64,000 bases of DNA from Micropruina sonneratiae. GTDB lineage: Bacteria > Actinomycetota > Actinomycetes > Propionibacteriales > Propionibacteriaceae. Location of the stretch: the NCBI RefSeq assembly GCF_025972045.1, contig NZ_JAPDHX010000001.1, forward strand, positions 271,181 through 335,180. Direction: 5' to 3'. This document shows, piece after piece, positions 1,698 through 54,411 of this stretch (within the stretch, counting starts at the first letter, position 1; every line of letters starts with the position of its first letter). The position numbers and the translations under genes are program-made. The notes beneath the pieces are model-generated. The model was given only the letters and a program-made list of their open reading frames with translations, was not told the DNA's origin and ran no database searches.

Positions 1698-2582
1698 TCA
1701 AACGCGGGGTTTGTGCCACTCGACGCTGACGGTCTCGCCGGTCGGCGACAGGTGCGCGACCAGTACCGCGGCGGTCAGCATCGGCCGGTCGGGAACCCCC
1801 AGCGCGTCCAGCATCAGCGGCAGCACGGGGCGGTGGCCGCAGATGGCTCGGGGCACCCCGGAGGCGGCGGTCTGGCCGATGAGCCGTTTCATCAGCTTGC
1901 GGACGGCCTCGGGATGGTCCTTCGCCTGTTCCTCCGACAGCGTCGACCACCCCTTCACGTCGAGCCGTTGCGCCTTCGCGTACGGGCCCAACGTGCTCAT
2001 GCAGCGCGCCGAGGTGGACGAGTCGAGATCCTGGACGCCGTAGGCGGCCAGCAACGGCGCCAACTGCTTGCTCTGCTTGCGGCCCCGGCTGCTCAGCTGG
2101 CGCAACTGGTCCTTGCCCGACCAGTGCTTGCGCTCCATCGCCTTGCCGTGCCGGACGATCAGCAGCGGCGTGGTCTGCGGCAGGGTCACCGCCTGTTCGA
2201 CCAGCCGCCGCTCGTCGGCGTAGGTCATCCGCCGCAGCGCCGAGTCGATGGTCAGCCAGGCCCGGCGGTCGACCTCGGCGTTGGCCTTGAACCGCCCCTG
2301 TTCGACAACGGTGCCCAGCCAGTAGGCGACCCGCTTGGTGCCGCTGGGGATCGGGTACTGGATGCGGTCCACCGGGTGGGTGAGCCGAATGCGGACCGCC
2401 GACTCCTCGACCACCTCGCGGACGGCGGTCCCGGCCAGATACTCGTCGGGGTCGAGCTTGCCCTTCGGCAGCGACCAGTCGTTGTAGCTGGGCCGGTGCA
2501 CCACGAGCACCTGGAGCTGGCGCCCTTTGGGCCGGCGCAGCACGATCGCACCCGCGGCCTCCACCAGGCGCCCCCGGCTCAT
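1698..2582 (-). CDS. mutT1: Nudix hydrolase fused to a histidine-phosphatase domain (MutT1-like)
   Basis: A two-domain protein of 294 aa. Residues 5-140 form a Nudix domain with the box [21 protein letters not shown] (REVVEE core). Residues about 150-290 form a histidine-phosphatase domain starting with the LLIVRHGKA motif (RHG). This order is that of mycobacterial MutT1, which degrades 8-oxo-GTP/dGTP and dinucleoside polyphosphates. The ATG at 2582 overlaps the ppk stop by 4 nt, so the two are translationally coupled. Co-expression with polyphosphate kinase fits a role in nucleotide sanitation or polyphosphate-linked nucleotide turnover. The long upstream extension of the open frame is antisense to ppk-coding sequence and is not part of the gene. 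Confidence 0.88.
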
Positions 2583-4687
2583 CCGCCGACCCGTTCGCGG
2601 CGCGAGCCCAGCGACGAGATGAGGTGCTCCTGCAGGTCGAGCAGCGGTTCGCCGTCCGGGGCGGCGGTGTGCTGCACCCAGCCGTCCGGCTCGAGCCACC
2701 ACGAGGCGGTGCCGTCGTCGAAGGCCAGGTCGAACAGCCCCTCGATGGTGGCCATGTGCCGCGGGTTGGTGAGCGAGGCGAGCACCTCGACCCGGCGGTC
2801 GAGGTTGCGGTGCATCAGGTCGGTGGAGCCGATGCCGACGCGGGGCTGGCCGCCGTTGGCGAACCAGAACAGCCGGGAGTGTTCGAGGAAGCGGCCGAGG
2901 ATCGAGCGCACCCGGATGTTCTCGCTCAGGCCGGGCACCCCCGCCTTCACGGTGCAGATGCCGCGCACCCACAGCTCGACACTCACCCCGGCCCCGGACG
3001 CCCGGTACAGCGCGTCGATCACGGTCTCGTCGACGATGGAGTTGACCTTGATCCGGATCCCGGCGGGACGCCCGGCGCGGTGGTGCTCGATCTCGTCGTC
3101 GATGAACTCGACCAGCCCGCGACGGATGCCGTGCGGGGCGACCAGAAGCCGCTTGTAGTGGGTCTCCTGACCCATTCCGGACAGGTGGTTGAACAGCCGG
3201 GCCACGTCGTCGGTGATCACCGGGTTGGCGGTGAGCAGGCCGACGTCCTCATACATCCTGGCCGTCTTCGGGTTGTAGTTGCCGGTGCCGATGTGGCAGT
3301 AGCGACGCAGCCCGTCCGGCTCGTCGCGCACCACCAGCGACAGCTTGCAATGCGTCTTGAGGCCGATCAGCCCGTACACCACGTGGCAGCCGGCCCGCTC
3401 GAGCTTGCGCGCCCAGCCGATGTTGGCCTGCTCGTCGAAGCGGGCCTTGATCTCGACCAGTGCGAGCACCTGCTTGCCGGACTGGGCGGCCTCGATCAGG
3501 GCGTCCACGATCGGCGAGTCGCCCGAGGTGCGGTACAGCGTCTGCTTGATCGCCAGCACCGCCGGGTCGGCGGCGGCCTGCTCGATGAACCGCTGCACGC
3601 TGGTCGCGAACGAGTGGTAGGGGTGGTGCAGCAGCACGTCACGGTGCTTGAGCGCGGCGAACATGTCGGCCGGCATGGCCGTCTCGACCTCGGCCAGTTC
3701 GGGATGGGTCTTGGGCAGGAACGCCTTGTACTTCAGCGATTCGCGGTCCAGGTCGGCCAGCGAGAACAGGCCGCGCAGGTCGAGGGGCGCGGGCAGCTTG
3801 AACACCTCCTTCTCGGAGATGTCGAGTTCGCTGACCAGCAGGTCGAGCATCTTGTCGTCGATGTCGTCCTCGACCTCGAGCCGCACCGGCGGACGCCCCA
3901 CCTTGCGCCGCAGCAGCTCCTTCTCCAGCGCGTGCAGCAGATTCTCGGCGTCGTCCTCCTCGACCTCGAGATCCTCGTTGCGGGTGACCCGGAAAGTGGA
4001 GTGCTCCAGCACCTGCATGCCGGAGAACAGCCGGTCGAGGTGCCGGGCGATGACGTCCTCGATCGCGATGAAGCGACCCTCGGCCAGGGGCAGGAAGCGG
4101 CTCAGCACCGCCGGCACCTTGACCCGCGCGAACTGCCGGGCGCCGGTCATCGGGTTCTTCAGCAGCACCGCCAGGTTGTTGCTCAGCCCGGAGATGTAGG
4201 GGAACGGGTGCGAAGGGTCCACCGCCAGCGGGGTCAGCACCGGGAAGATGCGTTCCTCGAACAGGGTGGTGAGCGTGGCCTTCTCGGAGTCGGTCAACTG
4301 ATCCCAGCGCAACACCTCGATGCCCTGCTCGGCCAGTTCGGGGCGGACCTCGTCGGCGAACACCCGGGCTTGCTGGGTCACCAGCTCGCGGGTACGGGTG
4401 AGGATCTTCTCGTGCAGGTCGCGCGGCAGGATGCCGGACGCCGAGGGCACCGCCACGCCTGCGGCGATGCGGCGCTTGAGTCCGGCCACCCGGACCATGA
4501 AGTACTCGTCCAGGTTCGAGGAGAAGATGGCCAGGAACCGTGCCCGCTCCAGCAGCGGGACGCGGGCGGCGTCCCGGGCCAGGTCGAGCACGCGGTTGTT
4601 GAACGCCAGCCAACTCAGCTCGCGCTCGGAGTAGCGGTCGGCGGGCAGCTCGGATCGGTCCTCGTCGAGCACCAGTTCGGCGGTCAT
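2579..4687 (-). CDS. ppk: Polyphosphate kinase 1
   Basis: Reversibly transfers the ATP gamma-phosphate to inorganic polyphosphate. The 702-aa protein has the PPK1 order: N domain ([19 protein letters not shown]), head, then two PLD-like catalytic domains. [12 protein letters not shown] carries the autophosphorylated-histidine region and [19 protein letters not shown] the HxTGNYN-type motif; the C-terminus has [18 protein letters not shown] prefer the ATG at 4687 over the GTG at 4690, because AGGAG is then 5 nt upstream instead of 2. Either start overlaps the mshD stop, so the gene is coupled to mshD upstream and mutT1 downstream. A PHO-box-controlled pst operon follows, tying phosphate uptake to its storage. 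Confidence 0.96.
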
Positions 4688-5520
4688 CACTGCTCCTGAG
4701 AAGGCTGGTCGGGGCCGTAAAGGACATCACTGTGCACCACGGTGAAGCCGGTCCGCTCGTACAGTTGTACCGCCCTGGCATTGGCGGCTTCAACGTACAG
4801 ATGCACGCTGGGACTGCCGGCGGCGGCCAGGTGTTCCAGCCCGGCGGCCAGTAACCGCTTGCCCAGCCCGGTGCCCTGCGCGCGCGGCGCGGTGGCCAGG
4901 ATGTACACCTCGCCCCGGCCGTCCGGGTGGCGTTTGGTCCAATGGAAGCCGGTCAACCCGTCGGCGTCGGAGGTGACCAGCAGGCCGTCGGGGTCGAACC
5001 AGTCCTCGGCGAGCCGGGCGTCCAGGTCGGCGCGAGAGAAGCGACGCTGCTCGGGGTGCCAGTCGAACGCGGCGGCGTTGAGGGCCAACAGCGCGTCGGC
5101 GTCCTGCATCGTGAACGGCCGGACGCCGTCGAACCGCTGCCCGGTGGGCGGGTCCAGGGGCCGCTGCATCACCAGCAGCCGCCGGCGTTCGAGCAGGCCG
5201 TTCGCCGCCGCGAAGCCCTGCGCCGCGGGCAGGTTGCCGAACGCCCACACCCCGACGCCACGCACCTCGGCGAGCAGTTCGCCGCCGATGCCCCGGCGGC
5301 GGTGGGCGGGGTGCACGAACAGCTGGGCGGTGCCGTGGCTGTCGTTGCGCTGCGCGTACCCGATCAGATCCCCGTCCAGTTCGCGAAGGTGGTGGGTGAC
5401 GGACGCCGGTGCGCCGGCGAGCGCCAGGGTGGCGTCCTCGTTGAGGGGGTGTTCGCCGTCATGGTCGGCGACCGTCCCGGCCAGCGCACGCACCCGTTGG
5501 GCGTCCTCGGGGCTCAGCAT
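4687..5520 (-). CDS. mshD: Mycothiol synthase (acetyl-CoA:Cys-GlcN-Ins acetyltransferase)
   Basis: Last step of mycothiol synthesis: acetylates the cysteine amine of Cys-GlcN-Ins. The 277-aa protein has two tandem GNAT domains. The N-terminal one has [11 protein letters not shown] and the acetyl-CoA loop [10 protein letters not shown]; the C-terminal one has [29 protein letters not shown], and [16 protein letters not shown]. This arrangement is specific to MshD and limits the host to Actinomycetota. It lies 22 nt downstream of glnR and overlaps ppk by 1 to 4 nt. The glnR-mshD adjacency is the same as in mycobacteria. Confidence 0.95.
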
Positions 5521-37411: not shown

Positions 37412-37630
37412 TCAGGCAGGAGAATCTTCTGCACCGGGTTGCCTGGCTGCATCGATGGTCGCCTTGGCGCCGTCCAGCCACTGCGTACAGCGTGCGGCCA
37501 GCGCCTCACCCTCCTGCCACAGCTCCATCGCCTTCGACAGCGGCACGGCCCCCGACTCCAGGGCCTGCACCACCTCGACCAGTCGCTGCCGGGCCTGCTC
37601 GTAGCTGAGCTGTTCGGTCTGTTCAGCCAT
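37412..37630 (-). CDS. xseB: Exodeoxyribonuclease VII small subunit
   Basis: Small subunit of ExoVII, which degrades single-stranded DNA to oligonucleotides. 72 aa, with LSYEQARQRLVEVVQALESGAVPLSKAMELW and CTQWLDGAKATID, the usual helical pattern. Its ATG at 37630 overlaps xseA by 8 nt. The 134 nt after it contain the promoter/operator region of the peptide gene. Confidence 0.95.
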   Translation of the reverse strand: MAEQTEQLSYEQARQRLVEVVQALESGAVPLSKAMELWQEGEALAARCTQWLDGAKATIDAARQPGAEDSPA

Positions 37631-38855
37631 CGCCGTCCTTTCTCGGATGCACCTCGGTGACCTGGGCGTGCACGGTGCCGTCGGCCAGCATCGCCACGAT
37701 CTCATCGCCGGACGCCGCCTCGGCCGCGCGCACCGGCTCGCCGCCGTCAGTGCTGAGGATGGCATAGCCGCGCAGTAGCGTCGCCCGCGGCGAAAGGGCG
37801 CGGACACGGCCCACCGCGTGCTCGACCCAGGACGCCTCCTGGCGCAGCAGGCCCCGCACCGCTCGCTCGCATCGGTCGCGCAACTCGCCCACCTGAGTGA
37901 CCTGCACCGTCACCGGTCCCAGCGGGTCGGCCAGCACCGGACGCGAACGCAGCGACGCCACGTGCTGACGTTCGCGTTCGAGCAGGCGCAGGGTCGCGGC
38001 CCGGACCCGGTCGCGGGCCTGGTTAACCCGGTCCCGCTCGTCCGCGACGTCGGGCACCACGCGTTTCGCGGCATCGGTCGGCGTGGCCGCCCGAAGGTCA
38101 GCGACCAGATCGATGATCGGCGTGTCCGGCTCGTGCCCGATGGCGCTCACCACCGGCGTGTGGCAGGCGAAGACGGCGCGGACCAGGGATTCGTCCGAGA
38201 ACGGCAGCAGATCCTGCAACGACCCACCGCCCCGGGCGACGATGATGACGTCGACCGACGGGTCGCGATCCAGAGCGGTCAGGGCGTCGCGGATCTGCTC
38301 GACGCAGCCCTGCCCCTGCATCAGCGCGTGCCGGACGACGAAGCGCACCCCGCTCCAACGCCGGCGCGCGACCTCCAGCACGTCGCGCTCGGCCGCGCTG
38401 CCCTCGGCGGTGATCAGCCCCACCCCGCGGGGCAGGAACGGCAGCCGCCGTTTGCGGGCCGGGTCGAACAGGCCCTCGGCCTGCAGCATCCGCTTGCGCT
38501 GCTCGATCTGGGCGAGCAGCCGGCCCTCGCCCGAGGGCCGCAGGTCGGTGCACTCGAAGGTCAGCGACCCCCGCGCCGCCCACACGGTGGGCCGGACGAA
38601 CGCCACCACCTCCATCCCGTCGCCGATCGGGCCGGCGGCGTCTAGCACCGAGGTGGACGCGGTGACGGTCACCGTCACGTCGGCGAGCGGGTCGCGCAGG
38701 CTGATGAAGTGGGTGACGGCGCCGGAGCGGCGGCGCAGCTCGACGAGCTGACCGGCCACCCACACGCTGCCGAGCCGCTCCACCCACGACTTGGTCAGCC
38801 CGACCACTGCCCGCAGCGGTTGTGGCTGCTCGGGGCTGGAGGACACCTTGGCCAT
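37623..38855 (-). CDS. xseA: Exodeoxyribonuclease VII large subunit
   Basis: Catalytic subunit of ExoVII, 410 aa. An OB-fold at the N-terminus (VWVAGQLVELRRRSGAVTHFISLRD) is followed by the catalytic domain with PRGVGLITAEGSAAERDV, DVIIVARGGGSLQDLLPFSDE and VVSAIGHEPDTPIIDLVADLRAATPTDAA, and a C-terminal coiled coil (residues 290-380). Start ATG 38855 with GGAG just upstream; an open frame runs further upstream but lacks protein character. Operon with xseB. Confidence 0.95.
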   Translation of the reverse strand: MAKVSSSPEQPQPLRAVVGLTKSWVERLGSVWVAGQLVELRRRSGAVTHFISLRDPLADVTVTVTASTSVLDAAGPIGDGMEVVAFVRPTVWAARGSLTFECTDLRPSGEGRLLAQIEQRKRMLQAEGLFDPARKRRLPFLPRGVGLITAEGSAAERDVLEVARRRWSGVRFVVRHALMQGQGCVEQIRDALTALDRDPSVDVIIVARGGGSLQDLLPFSDESLVRAVFACHTPVVSAIGHEPDTPIIDLVADLRAATPTDAAKRVVPDVADERDRVNQARDRVRAATLRLLERERQHVASLRSRPVLADPLGPVTVQVTQVGELRDRCERAVRGLLRQEASWVEHAVGRVRALSPRATLLRGYAILSTDGGEPVRAAEAASGDEIVAMLADGTVHAQVTEVHPRKDGDG

Positions 38856-39163
38856 CGCTCCACCGTAGAGGGCGAGGCGCCGATCCGCGCCCGCACCAGG
38901 CCGCGTGCGCGGTCGCCGGCCACCGGACGCGAACCTCACGGGCATCGTGAGCACTTCTTGTGGATTCCTTGACATTGCCTGGACGGGCTCTGGAGGTCGG
39001 TCGACAAGAATCAATCGTGCACGCGGAACTGAGGTTCCCGGACCTGGATGCGACACGTGAGGGAGACAACTGACATGGGGGTGGCAGTGTCTCCGATCGG
39101 TGACTGGGGGGAACCGATTCACGTGCTCGCGACGCTCCGGTCGAAGCCCTTCCCGGGTGCGTC
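38856..39163. other. 308-nt intergenic region between divergent xseA and the Hpt-like gene
   Basis: It should hold both promoters. TTGACA at 38970-38975 is a good -35 match on the plus strand, though no clear -10 box stands 17 nt after it. ATCGGTGACTGGGGGGAACCGAT near 39096-39118 is an imperfect palindrome. I see no gene here. Confidence 0.4.
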
Positions 39164-39589
39164 GTGAGTCGCCTGTCGGCGCCGCAAGGCGCCGGCAGGG
39201 GACGCGACCATCGTCCCGGGTGTCACCCGGACGACAACCTGCGCGAACTCTGCGATGAACTCGGTGTCGAGGCCGTCGACCGACTCGTGGCGAGCTACCT
39301 GGCACTGCTGGACGGGCGCGTCGATGACGTCGGCCAGTGCCTGCGGAGCAAGCAGTACGAGGCGGGTTCGATCCTGTTGCTCACGCTCGAGACGTCCAGC
39401 CACCTGGTCGGTGCGGACGACTTGAGTCGCGTGGCCGTCGACCTGCGGCTGGCGATCGAGCAGGACCGTGGCGATTCGACGGACGAGCTCTACTGCGCGT
39501 TGCGCCGCAGCGCGTCGGTGGCGCGCACAGCGCTGTCGTCGTGGCTGGCGGCCTCGCCGTCCCAACCGGGGGGCAGCACCAACTCCTGA
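39164..39589 (+). CDS. Hpt-like protein lacking the phospho-acceptor histidine
   Basis: A 141-aa protein starting at GTG 39164. The helical core DNLRELCDELGVEAVDRLVASYLALLDGRVDDV is followed by LLTLETSSHLVGADDLSRVAVDL, which aligns with the Hpt helix AHxLKGSSxxLGA except that the histidine position is Leu. It could be a pseudo-Hpt that binds a regulator without carrying phosphate. Its last 100 nt overlap the convergent true Hpt gene, an unusual antisense arrangement. A standard annotation might call it hypothetical. Confidence 0.5.
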   Translation: MSRLSAPQGAGRGRDHRPGCHPDDNLRELCDELGVEAVDRLVASYLALLDGRVDDVGQCLRSKQYEAGSILLLTLETSSHLVGADDLSRVAVDLRLAIEQDRGDSTDELYCALRRSASVARTALSSWLAASPSQPGGSTNS

Positions 39590-39891
39590 TTGAGGCGCCG
39601 GACGAGCTCCACCGCACGGTCGGGCACCGGGCCGGCGGCGTCGGCGTCGATCAGGTCCGACTCGAGTTGTGCGGCGACCGCCGCGCCGCGCGGGTGACCC
39701 AGAGTGCCCGCCGACCCCACCACCGTGTGGGCGACCGCACGGGCCTGGTCGCGGGTCTCGGGGTTGACGCCACCGGACCGCTGCCACTCCTCGACGATCG
39801 CCGCCAGGGTGGCGGCGCGCTCGCGGTTGCGGTTCCAGGCCCGGTCGACGAGGCGCCGGAACGCGTCGCCCGCGAACTCCTCGGCGCTCAC
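39490..39891 (-). CDS. Histidine phosphotransfer (Hpt) domain protein
   Basis: A 133-aa single-domain phosphotransfer protein. ARAVAHTVVGSAGTLGHPRGAAVAAQLES contains the phospho-acceptor histidine in the AHTVVGSAGTLG motif. It starts at GTG 39891, overlapping the CheY-like gene by 4 nt (GTGA), so the two are co-translated. It would relay phosphate between the histidine kinase on the other strand and a receiver. It has a C-terminal tail of 35 residues outside the domain. Confidence 0.75.
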   Translation of the reverse strand: MSAEEFAGDAFRRLVDRAWNRNRERAATLAAIVEEWQRSGGVNPETRDQARAVAHTVVGSAGTLGHPRGAAVAAQLESDLIDADAAGPVPDRAVELVRRLNQELVLPPGWDGEAASHDDSAVRATDALRRNAQ

Positions 39892-40274
39892 GACGGCCAG
39901 CCGAGAATGCTGCGGACCTGGCCGGCCAGGTTCATCGGGTCGAACGGCTTCGCGATCACACCGACGGCGACGTCGGCCGCGGGGTCTCCACCCACTCGCG
40001 CCGTCAGCAGGATGACGGGCACCGCTGCGGTCGCCGGGTCGGCCTTGAGGCGGCGCGCCGTCTCGTAGCCGTCCACTCCCGGCATCATCACGTCGAGCAG
40101 GACAGCGTCCGGTGGGCTCTCGCGCGCGATGTTCAGGGCCTCGATTCCGCTGGTTGCCGTCGTCACCGTGAATCCACCGATCAATTCGAGGGAGGCGACA
40201 GCGACCTCACGGATATCGTCGTCGTCGTCCACCACCAATACCACCTTGCCGGACAAGGCGGGTGATTGCGGCAT
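39888..40274 (-). CDS. CheY-like single-domain response regulator
   Basis: A 128-aa receiver. VVLVVDDDDDIREVAVASL has the acidic pocket, DAVLLDVMMPGVDGYETARRL the phospho-acceptor Asp, VILLTARVGGD the Thr, and GVIAKPFDPMNL the Lys. No output domain is attached, so it acts by protein contact or as a phosphate sink. Paired with the Hpt gene and divergent from the histidine kinase over 77 nt, where both promoters must lie. Confidence 0.9.
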   Translation of the reverse strand: MPQSPALSGKVVLVVDDDDDIREVAVASLELIGGFTVTTATSGIEALNIARESPPDAVLLDVMMPGVDGYETARRLKADPATAAVPVILLTARVGGDPAADVAVGVIAKPFDPMNLAGQVRSILGWPS

Positions 40275-40351
40275 GACGGCTCCTCTCCGGTACGAATCCT
40301 AACGATCCCTCCCGCGACACGGCGGTTCGGCTACACCGTGAGGATGCCCCT

Positions 40352-42541
40352 GTGGCCGCCGGAACTGCAATACGATCAACACACCCCCACGTAAGTGAAC
40401 TTCCTGTGATCAGAGTCGACCCGAGATTTCCGCCGAGCCGCGGATTCGCTGTGGCGTGCCTGGCCGGGCTCGTCGCCGGAATCGTGTTCGCGGTCCTCAT
40501 GGCGTCGATCCCGTCGGCGGAGACCCGTGCGATGGTCACCACGCTGTTCCTGCTCGGCTTCGGCGTCCTGGCCGCTGTGCTGGCCATTCGGCGCACGGGT
40601 CTGAGCGTCGGCCGGATCAAGCGTGCCTGGCTCATCCTTTCCATCGGGCTGTGCCTGGGGATCTCGTCGAACCTGATCAGCCTGGGCCTGCTCCCGGGCG
40701 AGGCGTTGATTCTGGTCGACCCGCTGTTGATGGTGGCACTGCTGTGCAGCCTTGTCGCGCTGATGCTCTTCCCGACCGCACGGCGGCGGCGCGCCGACCT
40801 GATCCGGTTGGTGATGGACGGCCTGGTGGTGGGCGGCTCGGTGCTCTTCATGGGTAGCGCCACGATCTTTCCGACCCTCCTGGCCAAGCAGGACGGTTCG
40901 CTGGGCAGCCAGGTGCAGATCCTCGCGCTGCCCGTGCTCGACCTGGTCATCGCCACGGCCGCGATCCTGCTCATCGCCCGGAGTGCCGCGCAGAGCCGGA
41001 CCCCGCTGATCCTCGTCGGCGTGGCGTTCCTGCTGTACTCGGTCTCCGACATGGCCTACGCCGTGAACGTCTCGGTCGGCGCCGCGGGTCTGGGCAGTTG
41101 GTGGGATCTCGGTTGGATGGGCGGCTACTTCTTCCTGAGCCTCGCAGCGCTGCACCCGGACACCGCCGAACCGGTCGCCGACCGCTCCGCCGAGCCGTCG
41201 GCGGTGCGCAGCACGTTCGTGTTCTTCGGCATCTTCCTGGCGGCTGCCGCGACGAACATGCTCGCCGAGGCGCGCGGAGAGCTCGCCATCGAAGCCTGGA
41301 TCGTCTGGGGCTTCCTGCTGCTCGTCGTCGTGACGCGCCAGATCGTCCTGGTGATGGACAACGAGTACCTGAGGCGGTCGCTCGAGGTGCGGGTGCAGGC
41401 CCGCACGCGCGAACTCCGGGCAATCACCCATCAGCGCGAGATGCTGCTCAGTTCGGTCGCCGACGGCATCTACGGCGTCGACCGCGCCGGGACGATCACG
41501 ATGGTGAACGGGGCCACCGTGAGCCTCCTGGGCAGGTCGGAGCGGTCACTCATCGGTGCCAACGCCCATGACCTGTTCCATGCGCCGCAGGAGGACGGCG
41601 TGCCGTACCCCTACGACAACTGCTACATCGCCGAAGCCACCCGATCGGGCGTGACCGTCACCGGTGAAGAGGACGTCTACGTGCGTGGGGACGGGCGAAC
41701 CATGGTGGTGGAGGTGACCGCGAGTCCGCTGCGTGCCGACGACGAAGTCAGGGGAGCGGTCGTGGTGTTCCGCGACGTCAGCCAGCGCCGCGAGATGGAC
41801 CGGATGAAGCAGGAGTTCGTCTCCGTGGTCAGCCACGAACTGCGGACCCCCCTCACCTCGATCCGCGGGGCGCTCGGCCTGCTTTCCGGTGGAGCGTACG
41901 GGGCACTGCCCCCGGCCGCGACACGGATGCTCGCGATCGCCACCTCGGGCAGCGTCCGACTCGAGAAGCTGGTCAACGACATCCTCGAGATCGAGCGACT
42001 GGACACGGGCATGCTGCCGTTGGTCATCAAGAGCCAGGCAGTGGAGGCGGCCTGCCAGGAGACGATCGTCACCATGTCGGGCATGGCGCAGTCCTCGCAG
42101 ATCAGCCTGTCGGCGCCGGACGTCTCCGGCTGGGTGCTGGCGGACAAGGATCGACTGGTTCAGGTGCTGATCAACCTGGTCGGGAACGCCATCCGCTTCA
42201 GCGACCCCGGCGACGCCGTGCGGATCTGCGCCCAACCTCGTGGCGACGTGGTCGAGATCTCTGTCGCCGACACCGGGCGGGGAATCCCGGCGGAGAAACT
42301 CGACAGCGTCTTCGACCGGTTCAGCCAGGTGGATTCCACCGACGCCCGCGAACGGGGGGGCACGGGGCTCGGCCTGGCGATCTGCCGGGGCCTCGTCGAA
42401 CGCATGGGCGGCCGGATCTGGGTCGAGAGCGAGTTGGGAGTGGGTTCGACCTTCCGCCTCGAGTTGCCGGCGGGAGCCCAGCCCGAAGCGACGACAACCG
42501 AGCCGGCGCTCGCGAACGACGCGCAGCCACAGGCGACCTGA
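40352..42541 (+). CDS. Membrane-bound PAS sensor histidine kinase
   Basis: A 729-aa kinase. Residues 30-330 have about nine hydrophobic helices (MASE-like sensor). A coiled segment (YLRRSLEVRVQARTRELRAITHQREML) leads to a PAS domain (residues about 370-480, IYGVDRAGTITMVNGATVSLLGR). Then come HisKA (FVSVVSHELRTPLTSIRGALG, phospho-His) and HATPase (NLVGNAIRFSDPG, VADTGRGIPAEKLDSVFDRFSQ, GGTGLGLAI). Start GTG 40352 has GAGG 8 nt upstream. It is followed by an arginine decarboxylase gene 18 nt later, so signal input and enzyme are probably one transcript. Confidence 0.9.
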   Translation: MAAGTAIRSTHPHVSELPVIRVDPRFPPSRGFAVACLAGLVAGIVFAVLMASIPSAETRAMVTTLFLLGFGVLAAVLAIRRTGLSVGRIKRAWLILSIGLCLGISSNLISLGLLPGEALILVDPLLMVALLCSLVALMLFPTARRRRADLIRLVMDGLVVGGSVLFMGSATIFPTLLAKQDGSLGSQVQILALPVLDLVIATAAILLIARSAAQSRTPLILVGVAFLLYSVSDMAYAVNVSVGAAGLGSWWDLGWMGGYFFLSLAALHPDTAEPVADRSAEPSAVRSTFVFFGIFLAAAATNMLAEARGELAIEAWIVWGFLLLVVVTRQIVLVMDNEYLRRSLEVRVQARTRELRAITHQREMLLSSVADGIYGVDRAGTITMVNGATVSLLGRSERSLIGANAHDLFHAPQEDGVPYPYDNCYIAEATRSGVTVTGEEDVYVRGDGRTMVVEVTASPLRADDEVRGAVVVFRDVSQRREMDRMKQEFVSVVSHELRTPLTSIRGALGLLSGGAYGALPPAATRMLAIATSGSVRLEKLVNDILEIERLDTGMLPLVIKSQAVEAACQETIVTMSGMAQSSQISLSAPDVSGWVLADKDRLVQVLINLVGNAIRFSDPGDAVRICAQPRGDVVEISVADTGRGIPAEKLDSVFDRFSQVDSTDARERGGTGLGLAICRGLVERMGGRIWVESELGVGSTFRLELPAGAQPEATTTEPALANDAQPQAT

Positions 42542-42559
42542 CCACAAGGAGGACAAGAA

Positions 42560-43087
42560 ATGGCGACGAGGGACTCCCGGCCGCCGGGCGGTTCGAGCGA
42601 CGAACGACCGCTGGTGATCCGGGTGACGGCCGGCAGTGGGAAGGGCCGAACCGCCCTGGCCGCCTTCGACAGCGCGCTGCGGGCAGCCGGAGTGGCCGAC
42701 CACAACCTGGTGCGGCTGAGTTCGGTCATTCCCGCGAAGGCGTCGATCGAGGTGTGCGAGCCCGAGGAGCAGCTCCGCGGCTCCTTCGGAGACGTCCTCT
42801 ACTGCGTCTACGCGGCCGCCTACGCCACCGAGCGTGGCGACGACGCCGTCGCCGGGGTCGGTTGGTCGCTGGCCGCCGACGGGTCGGGTCGCGGGTTGTT
42901 CGTCGAGCACGTCGGCCACGCCGAGGACCAGGTCCAGACGATGATCAAGACCACCCTCACCGACATGAGCGGTGGTCGCGAAGAGGCCTTCACCTACGCC
43001 GATCGCGTGGTCATCTCGGCGCACTGCTCGGGTCAGCCGGCCTGCGCCGTGGTCGTGGCGACGTATCGGACGGCGGGGTGGGAGTAG
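42560..43087 (+). CDS. pdaD: Pyruvoyl-dependent arginine decarboxylase
   Basis: Forms agmatine and CO2 from arginine using a pyruvoyl group made by self-cleavage. 175 aa, close to the family length. DHNLVRLSSVIPAKASIEV holds the Ser-Ser cleavage site (residues 53-54) in the setting seen in archaeal and chlamydial enzymes. VLYCVYAAAYATERGDDAVAGVGWSLA and RGLFVEHVGHAEDQVQTMI follow the fold. AAGGAGGA lies before the ATG. The gene is wedged between a histidine kinase and a GNAT gene, which is the interesting feature: it suggests regulated agmatine or polyamine formation. Confidence 0.85.
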   Translation: MATRDSRPPGGSSDERPLVIRVTAGSGKGRTALAAFDSALRAAGVADHNLVRLSSVIPAKASIEVCEPEEQLRGSFGDVLYCVYAAAYATERGDDAVAGVGWSLAADGSGRGLFVEHVGHAEDQVQTMIKTTLTDMSGGREEAFTYADRVVISAHCSGQPACAVVVATYRTAGWE

Positions 43088-43089
43088 CC

Positions 43090-43719
43090 ATGAGTGATCC
43101 AGATCCGGTGCTGGACGGGCCCTGGGACTACGGCGCGTTCACGCTGGCCTGCAGCACCGATCCCCGCTCCGACCTCACCGATCAGCTCTGGCCCCTCTAC
43201 CTGGAGACGTTCGGACCGCTGGCGACCAGGGCCGCTGCCCGCCATGTCCTCACCCGGGAGGAGTTCGCTGCCGAACTCGAAGACGAGCGGGTGTGGCGGT
43301 ACCTGGCTGTGGACGCCGACGGCGCGCCGGCCGGCTTGACCACGTTGACCAACGACCTCGCCACGATGCCGTGGATCAGCCCGGACTTCTTCGCCTTCCA
43401 TTTCCCCGACGAATGGAGCCGCGGCGCCGTCTTCTACGCGGGGATTTCACTGGTCCGTCCGGACTTTCGACGTCACGGCGTGTATCCGGCGATGATGAAG
43501 GGCCTGGGCGAGCGGGTGGCCGCGGCGCGAGGAGTGGTCGCCTTCGACGTGTGCGAATTCAACGACGAGGGCCACGGCCTGCCCCGGGCCACCGACAGAC
43601 TGTTGAACCGGGTTGCACCGTTCCAGGTGCGAGCCGTGGACGTCCAGAGGTACTACGTGGCGCAACACCTCGGCGAGGCCGCCGGACGGGTCGGGCACGG
43701 AGAGGAGCGGGGAGCGTGA
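43090..43719 (+). CDS. GNAT-family acetyltransferase in the arginine decarboxylase operon
   Basis: A 209-aa protein. Near residue 118 it has AVFYAGISLVRPDFRRHGVYPAMMKGLGERVAAAR, a GNAT core strand and the RxxG pyrophosphate loop. The N-terminus DLTDQLWPLYLETFGPLATRAAARHVLTREEF is not typical for known polyamine acetyltransferases. It starts 2 nt after the decarboxylase stop and overlaps the response regulator gene by 4 nt. Agmatine or another amine is a plausible but unproved substrate. Confidence 0.7.
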   Translation: MSDPDPVLDGPWDYGAFTLACSTDPRSDLTDQLWPLYLETFGPLATRAAARHVLTREEFAAELEDERVWRYLAVDADGAPAGLTTLTNDLATMPWISPDFFAFHFPDEWSRGAVFYAGISLVRPDFRRHGVYPAMMKGLGERVAAARGVVAFDVCEFNDEGHGLPRATDRLLNRVAPFQVRAVDVQRYYVAQHLGEAAGRVGHGEERGA

Positions 43720-44459
43720 ACGCGGCGTCCGAGCGTCGAGCGGTGATCATCGAGGATGATCCCGAGATTGCCGACCTGCTTGCCCTGGTGCTGTCCCAGG
43801 CCGGTTTTCAGACCCTGGTCGCCGGTGACGGCCCCACGGGACTGGCCATGATCAGGCAATCCGAACCGATGCTGACCACGCTGGACATCAACCTTCCCGG
43901 AATGGACGGCTTCGAAGTGGTGCGGCTGATCCGGAGCTTCTCATCGACCTACGTGATCATGCTGTCGGCCAGGCGGGACGAGATCGACACCCTGACCGGG
44001 CTGAACGCCGGAGCCGACGATTACATGGCGAAGCCGTTCCGTCCACGGGAGCTCAGAGCACGGGTCGATGCGATGATCCGTCGACTCGCCCTCACCGGCC
44101 CTGCGGAGCCGCACAGGGAGGAGCCTGTCAGCGAGCCCTGGCTGGCCCACGGCGGACTGCGCCTGAATCCTTCGATGCGGCTGGTCGAACTGGACTCGCA
44201 CCCGGTCAACCTGACCCGGACCGAGTTCGACATGTTGTGCGCCCTGATGTCGGCACGCCGTCGGGTCGTCAGCAAGGACGAGCTGAGCTCGTTCGTGCGC
44301 GGCGAGTCGGACCACTTCGTCCTCGACGCGGACCGGCGATCCATTGAGACTCACATGGCCAACCTGAGACGAAAACTCGGCGATTCCGCATCGCGGCCCC
44401 GGTTCATCGAAACGGTTCGAGGCATCGGCTATCGGCTCACCGTCGACAAGCATTCCTAA
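43716..44459 (+). CDS. OmpR/PhoB-family response regulator
   Basis: A 247-aa regulator. The receiver has AVIIEDDPEIADLLALVL (acidic pocket), TTLDINLPGMDGFEVVRLI (phospho-Asp), MLSARRDEIDTLTGLNAGADDYMAKPFRPRELRAR. The winged helix has LTRTEFDMLCALMSARRRVVSKDEL, ETHMANLRRKLGD and FIETVRGIGYRL. GTG 43716 overlaps the GNAT gene (GTGA), with GGGGAG upstream. Last gene of the kinase-decarboxylase operon; the likely partner of the kinase, with the CheY/Hpt pair as a possible second branch. Confidence 0.92.
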   Translation: MNAASERRAVIIEDDPEIADLLALVLSQAGFQTLVAGDGPTGLAMIRQSEPMLTTLDINLPGMDGFEVVRLIRSFSSTYVIMLSARRDEIDTLTGLNAGADDYMAKPFRPRELRARVDAMIRRLALTGPAEPHREEPVSEPWLAHGGLRLNPSMRLVELDSHPVNLTRTEFDMLCALMSARRRVVSKDELSSFVRGESDHFVLDADRRSIETHMANLRRKLGDSASRPRFIETVRGIGYRLTVDKHS

Positions 44460-44650
44460 TACAACTACAAACAAGCCATTCCATGGGCACTAACACCTGT
44501 GGTATCTTTTTCTCACCAACACCCCCACAATTCATCACGGACCGCCATACAACAGTTTTTCACTAGGCTTCCCTCTGGGAAGACGGCTGCTGAGAGGTGT
44601 TTCACCGCCCGGACTCTCACCCCCCAAAATGAGTTTCTCCGGAGGCAGTC
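44460..44650. other. AT-richer noncoding stretch after the signalling operon
   Basis: This run has clearly more A/T than the surroundings (for example TGGTATCTTTTTCTCACC and CATACAACAGTTTTTCACT). No frame of more than a few dozen codons looks like protein. It may mark an old insertion boundary or carry an untranslated RNA. I cannot say more. Confidence 0.4.
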
Positions 44651-44705
44651 GTTTGGGGCAGGAGCGCGGAACCCCCCCAAGATGACGCGCTCCTGCCCCC
44701 CAAAC
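44651..44705. terminator. Strong 17-bp hairpin between the signalling operon and ispH
   Basis: GTTTGGGG-CAGGAGCGC at 44651-44667 pairs with 44687-44705, perfect apart from two extra C on the 3' arm, around a 19-nt loop. It sits between the regulator stop (44459) and the ispH promoter region. It probably ends the upstream transcript. A -10 like TAGACT downstream of it (44736-44741) argues against a role as an ispH leader. Confidence 0.6.
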
Positions 44706-44748
44706 TCTCTTGCGGCGGGCGGCGGAGCCGCTCGATAGACTGGCGGCC

Positions 44749-45708
44749 ATGAGCGATTCCAAACGTGTCGTCGTCGCGGCCCCGCGCGGGTACTGCGCGG
44801 GCGTCGACCGGGCCGTGATTACGGTCGAGCGGGCGCTCGACCTGTACGGGCCACCCGTGTACGTGCGGAAGCAGATCGTCCACAACCGGCACGTCGTCGA
44901 GGATCTCGAGGCGCGCGGCGCCATCTTCGTGGAGGAGCTCACCGAAGTTCCTGAAGGTGCCACCGTGGTGTTCTCGGCCCACGGCGTGTCGCCGGCGGTG
45001 CACGCCGAGGCCGCCGAACGGGGCCTGAAGACCATCGACGCCACCTGCCCGCTGGTCACCAAAGTGCACAACGAGGCCCGCCGGTTCGCGGGCCAGGGCC
45101 TGCAGATCCTGCTGATCGGGCACGCCGGCCACGAAGAGGTCGAGGGCACCAGCGGCGAAGCGCCCGAGCACATCACGCTCGTCGAGCACCCCCAGGATGT
45201 CGACGCCCTCGAGGTGGGCGACCCCGGGCGGGTGGCCTGGCTCTCCCAGACCACCCTCAGCGTCGACGAGACCTGGGAGACGGTGTCGAAGTTGCGGGAG
45301 AAGTACCCCGACCTGATCGACCCGCCCAGCGATGACATCTGCTACGCCACCCAGAACCGGCAGTCAGCGGTCAAGCAGATCGCCGCCACCGCCGACCTGG
45401 TGATCGTGGTGGGCTCGCGCAACTCGTCCAATTCGGTGCGGCTGGTCGAGGTGGCGCTCGAGGCCGGAGCCAAGGCGTCCTATCGGGTCGACAACGCCGG
45501 CGAGATCGACGACGCGTGGCTCGAGGGCGTCGAGTCGGTCGGCGTCACCTCGGGCGCCTCGGTGCCCGACGAGCTCGTCCAGGGTGTGCTCGACCACCTG
45601 CAGCAGCGCGGCTACCCGGCCGCGGTCGAGGAGCGCCTCACCGAGGAGAACCTGGTGTTCGCGCTGCCCCCCGAACTGCGCAAGGACCTCAAGCGCGCAA
45701 GCGCCTGA
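44749..45708 (+). CDS. ispH: 4-hydroxy-3-methylbut-2-enyl diphosphate reductase
   Basis: Last step of the MEP isoprenoid pathway; a [4Fe-4S] enzyme. 319 aa with [13 protein letters not shown] (first cluster Cys), [19 protein letters not shown] (second Cys), [15 protein letters not shown] (third Cys), [17 protein letters not shown]. Start ATG 44749 is chosen over an in-frame ATG at 44710. TAGACT lies 8 nt before it, so transcription may begin at or next to the start codon (leaderless). Confidence 0.97.
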
Positions 45709-51156: not shown

Positions 51157-53421
51157 GTGACCGCCGTGGCCACCACCCCCGTCATTCGCACCGACGCCTG
51201 GGAATCGTTCACTCCCGGCGCGTGGACGCAGCACATCGACGTCCGTGACTTCATCCTGCGCAACTTCACGCCCTACACCGGCGACGCGTCCTTCCTGGCC
51301 GGGCCGACGGCCAGGACGCTGACCGTCTGGCAGACCCTGCAGCGCGACTTCCTCTCGGTCGAGCGGGCGCAGCGGGTCTACGACGTCGACACCCACACCC
51401 CGGCCGACGTGGACGCCTTCCCGGCCGGCTACATCTGCGCCGAGGACGACGTGATCGTCGGCTTGCAGACCGACACCCCGCTGAAGCGTCCGATGATGCC
51501 GGCCGGCGGCTGGCGAATGGTCGAGACGGCGATCGCCGAGGCCGGTCTCGAGATCGATCCGCGGGTCAAGGAGATCTTCACCAAGTACCGCAAGACGCAC
51601 AACGAGGCCGTCTTCGACATCTACACCCCGCGGGTCCGGGCCGCCCGCAGTTCGCACCTGGTCACCGGATTGCCGGACGCCTACGGCCGCGGCCGGATCA
51701 TCGGGGACTACCGCCGGGTCGCGCTGTACGGCGTCGACGCCCTGATCGCCGCCAAGCAGGCCGACAAGGACGCCGTCGCCGACCAGCCGTTCAGCGAGAG
51801 CTGGGCACGCTACCGCGAGGAGCACGCCGAGCAGATCAAGGCGCTGAAGAAGCTGAAGAACCTCGGCGCGAGCTACGGCTTCGACCTGGCCCGCCCCGCG
51901 GCGTCCTTCGTCGAGGCGGTGCAGTGGACCTACCTGGCCTACCTGGCCAGCGTGAAGAGCCAGGACGGCGCCGCGATGAGCATCGGCCGGCTGTCCGGCT
52001 TCTTCGACGTCTACGCCGAGCGTGACCTGGCCGCCGGCCTCATCGACGAGTCGGGCGTGCAGGAGGTGATCGACGCTCTGGTCACCAAGCTGCGGATCGT
52101 CCGCTTCCTGCGCACCGTCGAGTACGACCAGATCTTCTCCGGCGACCCCTACTGGGCGACCTGGTCCGACGGCGGCTTCGCCGACGACGGCCGCACCCTG
52201 GTGACGAAGACGTCGTTCCGGCTGCTGCAGACGCTGCGCAACCTCGGTCCGGCGCCCGAGCCCAACATCACCATCTACTGGGACGACCAGCTGCCCCAGG
52301 GCTACAAGGACTTCTGCGCGCTGATCTCGATCGCGACCTCGGCCATCCAGTACGAGTCCGACGCCGAGATCCGCAGCCACTGGGGCGACGACACCGGCAT
52401 CGCGTGCTGCGTCTCGCCGATGGCGATCGGCAAGCAGATGCAGTTCTTCGGTGCTCGGCTGAACGCCGCCAAGACCCTGCTCTACGCCGTGAACGGCGGC
52501 CGGGACGAGATGACCGGCAAGCAGATCGTGACCGGTTTCACCGGCATCGCCGGTGACGAGCCGCTGGACTTCGACACCGTCTGGGCCAAGTACGACCAGA
52601 TGCTGACCTGGGCGGTCGAGACCTACGTCGAGGCGCTCAACATCATTCACTACAGTCACGACAAGTACGCCTACGAGGCGATCGAGATGGCGCTGCACGA
52701 CGACGAGATCGTCCGCACCATGGGCTGCGGCATCGCCGGGCTGTCGATCGTGGCCGACTCGCTGGCGGCCATCAAGTACGCCACGGTCACCCCGATCCGT
52801 GACGACTCGGGCCTCGTCGTCGACTACATCACCGAGGGCGAGTTCCCGCGCTACGGCAACGACGACGACCGCGCCGACGAGCTGGCCGCTCTCGTGGTGA
52901 AGACCGTGATGGACAAGATCCGGTCGCTGAAGCTGTACCGGGACGCCGTGCCGACACAGTCGGTGCTCACCATCACCTCGAACGTGGTCTACGGCAAGGC
53001 GACCGGGTCGTTCCCGTGCGGTCACCGGGCGGGCACGCCGTTCGCGCCGGGCGCCAACCCCGAGAACGGCGCCGACAGCCACGGCATGATCGCGTCGATG
53101 ATGAGTGTCGGCAAGCTGAGCTACGACGACGCGCTGGACGGCATCTCGCTGACCAACACGATCACCCCGCCGGCGCTGGGCCGCACCGAGGCCGAGCGGG
53201 TCGCCAACCTGGTCGGGATCCTGGACGCGGGGATGGGCGAGGGCCTCTACCACGCCAACATCAACGTGCTGAACAAGGAGACCCTGCTCGACGCGATGGC
53301 ACACCCGGAGGACTACCCGCAGTTGACCATCCGGGTCTCCGGCTACGCGGTGAACTTCACCAAGCTGACCCGCGAGCAGCAGCTCGACGTCCTCTCCCGC
53401 ACCTTCCACGAGTCGGTCTGA
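51157..53421 (+). CDS. pflB: Formate C-acetyltransferase (pyruvate formate-lyase)
   Basis: Splits pyruvate with CoA into acetyl-CoA and formate under anaerobic conditions. 754 aa. The catalytic cysteine pair is in [12 protein letters not shown], and the glycyl-radical site is [12 protein letters not shown] at the C-terminus. [18 protein letters not shown] is another family motif. Full-length and intact. Oxygen-sensitive, so the host is at least facultatively anaerobic. The activase gene follows on the same strand. Confidence 0.97.
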
Positions 53422-53499
53422 CCCGTGACGGCAGCACTGCCGGAGGTCGTCGGGGGAGCCTTCGCGGGCTCGCCCGCCGACTCGGGCGTCCCCGTCGTG

Positions 53500-53576
53500 G
53501 CGGGCCTGCCCCGAGATCCCGGCGTGCGCCGGGATGACGGTGCGTGCCGGGATGACGGTGCGTGCCGGGACGACAG
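53500..53576. repeat. Palindromic repeat block between pflB and pflA
   Basis: ATCCCGGC-GTGC-GCCGGGAT (53516-53535) is a perfect 8-bp palindrome, followed by repeats of GTGCGTGCCGGGATGACG. The block is closely related to that at 35.4 kb. The open frame of pflA runs through it in phase, giving DPGVRRDDGACRDDGACRDD, a sequence with no protein character. It is better read as an intergenic repeat. Confidence 0.7.
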
Positions 53577-53616
53577 GCGGTCGAGCCTTCGCCCGGCTCC
53601 GCCCGTCCGCGCCACC

Positions 53617-54411
53617 ATGCTGGGCGGCATCCCGGTGGCCGACCACCTGTCCCGCAGCGAACTGCTGATGGCTCAGCGTTGTGGCGAGGTCGGGTCGGTG
53701 CACTCCTGGGAGCTGGTCACCGCCGTCGACGGCCCGGGCACCCGGATGACCACCTTCCTGGCCGGCTGCCCGCTGCGCTGCCTGTACTGCCACAACCCCG
53801 ACACGATGGCCGCCAATCGCGGCGTGCCGGTGCTGGCGTCCGACCTGCTGGCGCGGATCGAGCGCTACCGGGGCGTGTTCAGGGCGACCGGGGGCGGCAT
53901 CACCCTGTCCGGCGGCGAGGTGCTGCAACAGCCCGCCTTCGCCCGGCGGATCCTGGCCACCGCCAAGCAGCTGGGCATCCACACCGCGATCGACACCTCG
54001 GGCTTCCTGGGCCGCAACGCCGACGACGCCATGCTGGCCGATGTCGATCTGGTGCTGCTCGACGTCAAAGCGGGCGACGAGCCCACCTATCACCGGGTGA
54101 CCGGACGACGGCTGCAGCCCACCCTCGACTTCGGCCGCCGCCTGGACGCGGCGGGCATCGAGACCTGGATCCGGTTCGTCCTGGTGCCGGGGCTGACCGA
54201 CAACCCGGCGACCATCGAGCCGATCGCCGACTACGCCGCCTCCCTGCGGTGCGTGAGCCGGGTGGAGGTGCTGCCGTTCCACCAGATGGGGCGCGGCAAG
54301 TGGGCCGAACTCGGGCTGAGCTACGAACTGGCCGAGACGGCGCCGCCGTCGGCCGAACTGGTCGCGTCGACGCGGGCGATCTTCTCGAGTCGTGGGCTGA
54401 CCTGCTTCTGA
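53617..54411 (+). CDS. pflA: Pyruvate formate-lyase activating enzyme
   Basis: Radical-SAM enzyme that installs the glycyl radical on PflB. HSWELVTAVDGPGTRMTTFLAGCPLRCLYCHNPDTM carries the CxxxCxxC cluster motif; ATGGGITLSGGEVLQQ and VLPFHQMGRGKW also fit. I start at ATG 53617 (MLGGIPV), giving 264 aa; MAQRCGEVGS at 53668 is the other choice. The GTG at 53425 adds 64 residues that are encoded by the repeat block and should not be part of the protein. No clear ribosome-binding site is seen for any of the three, so translation may be linked to pflB. Confidence 0.9.
   Translation: MLGGIPVADHLSRSELLMAQRCGEVGSVHSWELVTAVDGPGTRMTTFLAGCPLRCLYCHNPDTMAANRGVPVLASDLLARIERYRGVFRATGGGITLSGGEVLQQPAFARRILATAKQLGIHTAIDTSGFLGRNADDAMLADVDLVLLDVKAGDEPTYHRVTGRRLQPTLDFGRRLDAAGIETWIRFVLVPGLTDNPATIEPIADYAASLRCVSRVEVLPFHQMGRGKWAELGLSYELAETAPPSAELVASTRAIFSSRGLTCF

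Follow-up and report, generated by a model that had tools for sequence, protein, structure and literature searches.

A recurrent decarboxylase–GNAT–membrane sensor cassette of Actinomycetota as a candidate system for making and reading an acylated amine

The 64,000-nucleotide stretch of the Micropruina sonneratiae genome analyzed here (hereafter the window) harbors between positions 39164 and 44459 a compact signalling cassette, in which a pyruvoyl-dependent arginine decarboxylase family protein (PvlADC) and a GNAT-fold acyltransferase are encoded downstream of a membrane histidine kinase. The lasting logic of this cassette is the combination of decarboxylase, GNAT and membrane sensor, though 15 out of 55 GNAT loci have no decarboxylase within 3.5 kb. 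In our estimation, the chances are about even that the cassette makes an N-acylated amine that is read by the linked sensor. A further-reaching proposal, with the odds somewhat against it, is that of a widespread signalling-cassette family in Actinomycetota, in which a decarboxylase and a dedicated GNAT would produce an acylated amine as signal, to be read by a membrane receptor encoded with them, the decarboxylase (pyruvoyl- or pyridoxal phosphate (PLP)-dependent), the receptor (ten-helix or seven-transmembrane (7TM)) and the output (phosphorelay or cyclic-di-GMP) being exchangeable around a constant GNAT.

The seven open reading frames (ORFs) of the interval were re-read and subsequently screened against Pfam and NCBIfam. 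This bore out the gene content given in an earlier note on this DNA, as all seven genes lie where it had placed them. The sensor, the two enzymes and the regulator encoded on the forward strand are:

40352..42541, forward strand: membrane PAS histidine kinase, 729 amino acids (aa), or 711 aa if the start is GTG 40406, with PAS, HisKA and HATPase_c domains
40409..41386, forward strand: unnamed membrane sensor domain, the N-terminal part of the kinase, with 10 predicted helices
42560..43087, forward strand: PvlADC, 175 aa, PF01862
43090..43719, forward strand: GNAT-fold acyltransferase, 209 aa, assigned by AlphaFold2 model and fold search
43716..44459, forward strand: OmpR-type response regulator, 247 aa, PF00072 (Response_reg, E=1.9e-25) and PF00486 (Trans_reg_C, E=1.9e-21)

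The genes follow each other in the order kinase, PvlADC, GNAT and regulator, with spacers of 18 nt between kinase and PvlADC and 2 nt between PvlADC and GNAT, and a GTGA overlap at the junction of GNAT and regulator. Among 197 genomes of the family, PvlADC was detected in 18, the GNAT in 19, both together in 17 and the ten-helix sensor domain in 28, the latter including 19 out of 19 GNAT-bearing genomes. Fisher tests returned 2e-21 for PvlADC with GNAT and 5e-20 for GNAT with sensor, related genomes being treated as independent. The sole PvlADC of the family outside this set belongs to a distant genome (G039), and two genomes of the same genus as the window (G017 and G040, 80% complete) are devoid of GNAT, decarboxylase and sensor alike. 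At wider range, the GNAT profile matched 19 of 394 class genomes and 19 of 396 phylum genomes, the window genome being counted in both. Pyruvoyl decarboxylases had been described in the earlier note as uncommon in bacteria; their frequency here fits this (20 of 396 phylum genomes, 19 of them above cut-off), but in these lineages they are recurrent as part of the cassette.

A search with an alignment as query recovered 63 GNAT loci (a single-protein query gave none) in Micropruina, Microlunatus, Friedmanniella, Desertihabitans, Nocardioides, Nocardia, Millisia, Antrihabitans, Geodermatophilus and unclassified bins, the closest relatives by GNAT being two Micropruina sp. bins (L126, L127). The cassette is carried by some soil and sludge actinobacteria. 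Within 3 kb of the GNAT, PvlADC was found at 62 and a membrane sensor at 59 of these 63 loci, about half of which stem from Nocardia and are not independent. Three of the four loci lacking a sensor (L136, L142, L180) are cut by contig ends, and the absence at L185 (Millisia) is real. The 59 sensors comprise 25 kinases, 32 GGDEF and 2 GGDEF-EAL proteins. A second set of 55 loci, obtained from the family, class and phylum genome scans and overlapping in species with the first, so that the counts are not additive, showed a sensor or kinase within 3.5 kb at 53 loci (family 20/20, class 16/17, phylum 17/18). A decarboxylase was found within the same distance at 40 loci (family 17, class 11, phylum 12), of which 27 encode PvlADC and 13 a PLP-type enzyme. 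In this count, L033-L035 were scored as carrying another histidine kinase because their sensor domain lies more than 3.5 kb from the GNAT, and the kinase of L231 was detected at a laxer threshold only. The earlier note had staked its proposal on conservation of the gene order in relatives, and this order does recur across many genomes of the family and beyond, which rules out a one-off neighborhood and shows the locus to be more than a chance arrangement.

Decarboxylase, sensor and output are all exchanged around the GNAT. Outside the class, a PLP-type decarboxylase adjoins the GNAT in 12 of 18 loci (17 genomes), with a convergent histidine kinase beside it; four of these 12 enzymes were scanned and all four matched PF02784. 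In L226, L228, L229 and L232 the PLP decarboxylase is even fused to the GNAT. All five PLP enzymes tested remained under the lysA equivalog cut-off. Five kinases beside PLP loci were scanned, and the 7TM domain PF16927 was matched above cut-off in three and below cut-off in one, with no match in the fifth. The other six loci outside the class encode a ten-helix GGDEF-EAL protein and no decarboxylase. Within the class, genome G604 has a PLP decarboxylase directly upstream of the GNAT. The ten-helix sensor domain is also found on GGDEF/EAL proteins adjoining the GNAT in other lineages, and the kinases of L031 and L033 are hybrids carrying additional receivers. On a quick GNAT tree, from which near-copies (>65% identity) and rows of up to 120 residues had been dropped and for which the sensor labels of L033, L034, L035, L167 and L231 were set by hand, the decarboxylase state changes at least seven times and the output (kinase versus GGDEF(-EAL)) four times; with only 10 of 49 inner branches starred and long branches meeting at the PLP clade, the deep joins of this tree are unsure. 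At L089, L091-L094, L228, L229 and L232, the GNAT (or fusion) gene faces the sensor gene in convergent orientation, their 3' ends overlapping by approximately 10-50 nt.

A linkage that stays fixed while its parts change is what a molecule common to enzymes and sensor would lead one to expect. The suggestion of the earlier note that an amine is used as a signal thereby gains circumstantial support, since decarboxylase and sensor are both exchanged for unrelated proteins and the linkage to the GNAT stays. A different arrangement, which we deem doubtful, would have the sensor read an outside condition and the two-component system induce the enzymes, the acylated amine serving protection or polyamine balance as an end product and being no ligand. 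The window itself speaks for this, as its sensor, enzyme and regulator genes have the appearance of a single operon. In other lineages, however, a GGDEF or GGDEF-EAL protein serves as the linked sensor, or the sensor gene is convergent and cannot share the transcript of the enzymes; moreover, with a profile built solely on the window protein, only 8 of the 63 loci showed an OmpR-type regulator within 3 kb.

The assignment of the PvlADC to its family is sound (PF01862, E=1e-29, 103.9 bits against a cut-off of 22.7), and 1n2m and 2qqd are its relatives in the PDB. Against the equivalog TIGR00286 it scored 68.9 bits, under the cut-off of 106.95; hence arginine as substrate is likely, judged by sequence, and not assured. 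The residues S54-S55, N49, D37 and E116 of the window protein are conserved. In an alignment of 91 module rows, window and near-copies included, the pyruvoyl Ser is present in 90 (one gap), the Asn in 90 (one gap), the Glu in 91 and the Asp in 85 (five His, one gap). With the Ser-Ser cleavage site and the catalytic Glu retained, self-cleavage and decarboxylation are predicted. The 3.5-Mb window genome encodes this single PF01862 protein.

The GNAT forms a separate family. Neither Pfam (E<=0.1) nor NCBIfam gave a match for the window protein, none of the 12 members of its alignment A1 matched a Pfam GNAT model at E<=0.1, and the four members compared with NCBIfam (window P0004, L033, L020, L028) had no match. 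The window protein is predicted to have the GNAT fold on the basis of its AlphaFold2 model (pLDDT 83; best PDB match SpNatD 4ua3_A, Z 15.1, root-mean-square deviation 2.9, 160 aligned residues), and also of its distant relative L218 matching PF00583. Among the PLP-linked relatives, L218 matched this model with 3e-7 and the fusion L228 with 2.3e-4, and the fusion L232 gave no match. DUF6904 was weakly matched by two of the 12 A1 members, not including that of the window (best E 0.0064). The GNATs of L033 (5520-6998), L034 (6438-7910) and L035 (6490-7962) are extended at the C-terminus by a region of ~250 aa, which by eye looks like one more GNAT domain; for the L033 protein, neither Pfam nor NCBIfam gave a match. 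R/QxxGxG/A is the GNAT motif of the loop binding coenzyme A (CoA). At this position the window protein reads RRHGVY, and the alignment shows the glycine to be lost in most relatives. In view of this degeneracy, the group transferred may be acetyl or a longer acyl.

The best fold matches of the GNAT are N-terminal protein acetyltransferases, which would be in line with a GNAT acting on a protein within the signalling path and a PvlADC that serves something else. This appears highly improbable to us, as the fusions in L226, L228, L229 and L232 tie the GNAT to a small amine. Among the fold neighbors there is also the agmatine N-acetyltransferase 7ciw (Z 13.2, tied with many). This neighbor would fit a GNAT that inactivates agmatine or some other polyamine, just as 1,3-diaminopropane is disarmed by Dpa, the set then holding a free-amine level watched by the sensor. 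In Acinetobacter, motility and biofilm are controlled by polyamine acetylation, according to the available part of PMC10267138. However, a GNAT that has a decarboxylase as neighbor or fusion partner suggests synthesis and not clearance, and we hold such disarming to be improbable.

The sensor domain had no Pfam match at E<=0.1. Its AlphaFold2 model (pLDDT 87) consists of ten long helices, and no known PDB fold was assigned to it: the best Foldseek hit was a rhodopsin with E 0.046, and the best VIA hit (Z 11.4, GPCR-like) stayed below the level of caution that the tool sets for helical bundles. The domain is rare, with 35 copies across 15 cassette genomes and a single copy in the window genome. 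All 15 genomes, which were picked after their cassettes had been seen, have at least one copy beside a GNAT or PvlADC. Three Asp residues are almost invariant and, with few exceptions, are kept in the 15 unlinked paralogues too.

Several observations weigh against a ligand made by the cassette. The sensor revealed no binding signature peculiar to the cassette, since the unlinked paralogues share its invariant Asp residues with few exceptions. A single clade of cassette-linked sensors was not found on a quick tree either, where linked kinases and linked cyclases form separate groups with unlinked relatives between them. The 15 loci without a decarboxylase within 3.5 kb have already been mentioned; in the seven class genomes without a linked PvlADC (two of them 78-82% complete), a PF01862 gene occurs nowhere in the genome, and the PLP enzyme of G604 is the one candidate amine source among them. 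G604 and L185 show no linked sensor in the stretches read, and an exporter is absent from the seven cassette genes. Finally, an enzyme of the agmatinase family PF00491 is present in 13 out of 26 genomes searched.

In respect to this last point, the window genome gave no match for PF00491 or agmatine deiminase (PF04371), with positive controls in 9/14 and 5/14 genomes, respectively; the search for an agmatine route covered these two families. PF04371 was found in one of the 26 genomes, and together with the PF00491 count this shows that the cassette has no fixed association with a polyamine route. The acid or wall-stress response proposed in the earlier note found no evidence, an arginine:agmatine antiporter being absent among the seven cassette genes. 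A siderophore route was rejected as well, with neither a monooxygenase nor a synthetase among the seven. Taken as a whole, the earlier interpretation is partly supported, with a conserved order, circumstantial support for the amine signal and no evidence for the stress role.

In the window, the genes next to the kinase provide parts of a probable route from sensor to output:

39164..39589, forward strand: His-less Hpt-like protein (pseudo-Hpt), 141 aa, whose alignment members match PF01627
39490..39891, reverse strand: histidine phosphotransfer (Hpt) protein, 133 aa, PF01627 (E=7e-9)
39888..40274, reverse strand: CheY-like single-domain response regulator, 128 aa, PF00072 (E=3.4e-21)

The CheY-like and Hpt genes diverge from the kinase set and overlap each other by 4 nt, and the pseudo-Hpt gene is convergent to the Hpt gene, the 3' end of which overlaps it by 100 nt. 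Domain scans and alignment show the parts of a phosphorelay to be present, with HisKA/HATPase, receivers and an Hpt whose phospho-acceptor His is retained in 9/9 rows. The pseudo-Hpt ORF itself has no Pfam or NCBIfam match. Its label in the earlier note is nevertheless fair: 7 of 12 alignment members match the Hpt domain PF01627 (best 9.2e-7), and by eye Leu takes the position of the Hpt His in 12/12 rows, within the motif LLxLE[TS][TS]S in 10/12. Kinship with the Hpt family of the cassette was not found despite these domain matches, the two profiles showing no similarity. The gene adjoins many cassettes of the family, either upstream or downstream. Plant pseudo-Hpt proteins are His-less inhibitors, and by analogy a modulating role may be assumed for the bacterial protein. 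A second cassette of one genome, L195 (G159 C278), comprises pseudo-Hpt, OmpR-type regulator, GNAT, sensor kinase and Hpt, and no PvlADC.

From these data we infer the reaction products, the product as ligand of the sensor and the direction of signal flow as follows. The decarboxylase would release an amine (agmatine, should arginine be its substrate), which the GNAT would acylate or acetylate, and the co-encoded membrane sensor would read the acylated product or its pool. In the window, the kinase would signal via the Hpt, the CheY-like protein and the His-less Hpt-like modulator to the OmpR-type regulator, with the divergent promoter as a further probable target of the latter; in other lineages, the sensor output would go to cyclic-di-GMP instead of a phosphorelay. 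The acylated amine may be a diffusible signal. If the product is indeed the receptor ligand, a new class of amine-based signals would feed phosphorelays and cyclic-di-GMP in Micropruina, Microlunatus, Nocardioides, Nocardia, Geodermatophilus and deeper lineages, and pyruvoyl arginine decarboxylases would gain a role in genomes without an evident polyamine route from agmatine. The enzyme and receptor swaps make this hypothesis directly testable.

CqsA/CqsS and the LuxI-type GNAT-fold synthases belong to synthase-receptor pairs of quorum sensing, and MbaA is a membrane GGDEF-EAL protein. The cassette resembles CqsA/CqsS-like pairs in that a small-molecule synthase adjoins a membrane kinase with a phosphorelay. 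It differs from these and from the LuxI type in its enzymes, and the presumed synthesis takes two enzymes and begins with a decarboxylase; no LuxI-family Pfam match (E<=0.1) was obtained for the window GNAT or the other 11 A1 members, and solved LuxI-type synthases were not among the fold matches listed. With NspS-MbaA it shares polyamine sensing that feeds cyclic-di-GMP, as far as the available part of the source describes it, but a periplasmic binding protein serves there, compared with a ten-helix membrane domain beside presumed synthase genes here. Polyamine acetylation alters motility and biofilm (PMC10267138, in the part available), and with polyamine sensing that feeds cyclic-di-GMP also known, each half of the cassette has a precedent. 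SpeG, Dpa (PMC10267138, likewise in part) and Drosophila AgmNAT are comparable in GNAT fold and amine substrates; 7ciw and SpeG share 11-13% identity with the window GNAT in fold alignments, and Dpa is likened by description. The PvlADC resembles Methanocaldococcus jannaschii 1n2m and chlamydial AaxB in family profile, Ser-Ser cleavage site and Glu and Asn residues, and differs from pyruvoyl arginine decarboxylases by its score under the TIGR00286 cut-off. According to PMC2720952, the AaxB chain is cut at Ser53 with the help of Glu109; AaxB lies next to a porin and an arginine:agmatine antiporter, in contrast to GNAT and sensor here. SpeD-derived pyruvoyl arginine and ornithine decarboxylases represent another pyruvoyl agmatine route in bacteria including Actinomycetota; their origin is S-adenosylmethionine decarboxylase and not PF01862, and they are described for polyamine biosynthesis (PMC10407285, in the part available). 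The linkage of decarboxylase, GNAT and sensor found no description in the open-licence full-text literature, judged by the titles and abstract starts listed in a search partly aimed at enzyme residues or parallels. The component families are known, and the joined cassette may be undescribed.

Two further elements belong to the locus:

40275..40405, no strand: divergent promoter region (40275-40351 with a kinase start at 40352), with boxes in relatives
44655..44699, no strand: terminator-like hairpin 3' of the OmpR-type gene, with two 14-nt arms of 100% complementarity and a fold z-score of only -1.15

The divergent promoter placed at 40275-40351 by the earlier note exists as an intergenic region, but is probably wider (~40275-40405), since the kinase likely starts at GTG 40406. 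This start was favored over 40352 in a by-eye alignment with three same-genus relatives, whose promoter-like boxes fall at 40352-40408, where the longer kinase reading puts codons. TTGTGACA-like and TATACT-like boxes in the divergent region are common to these relatives by eye, with a weak match in the window. No structured RNA scored above the gathering score in 38500-45500, and base composition did not point to foreign DNA (G+C 0.64-0.71 across 39000-45000 versus 0.67-0.75 around).

The cassette is flanked by xseA-like (37623-38858) and ispH-like (44749-45708) genes, named by eye, which were not found in the relative loci searched, some of these loci ending near the cassette. An ilvA-like gene of the window flank is also found near the cassette of L085. 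With two neighbors not found in relatives and this one gene shared, the site is mostly not shared, many flanks being short. A galactokinase-like gene (by eye) divergent from PvlADC occurs only in Nocardia loci (e.g., L139) and G431, with L056 listed among these; as it is confined to Nocardia and the Nocardia-like G431 cassette, it was attributed to shared descent and rejected as a cassette part. Farther away in the window, reading frames resembling pyruvate formate-lyase and its activating enzyme (51157-54411) and a polyphosphate kinase-like reading frame (2579-4690) were named by eye.

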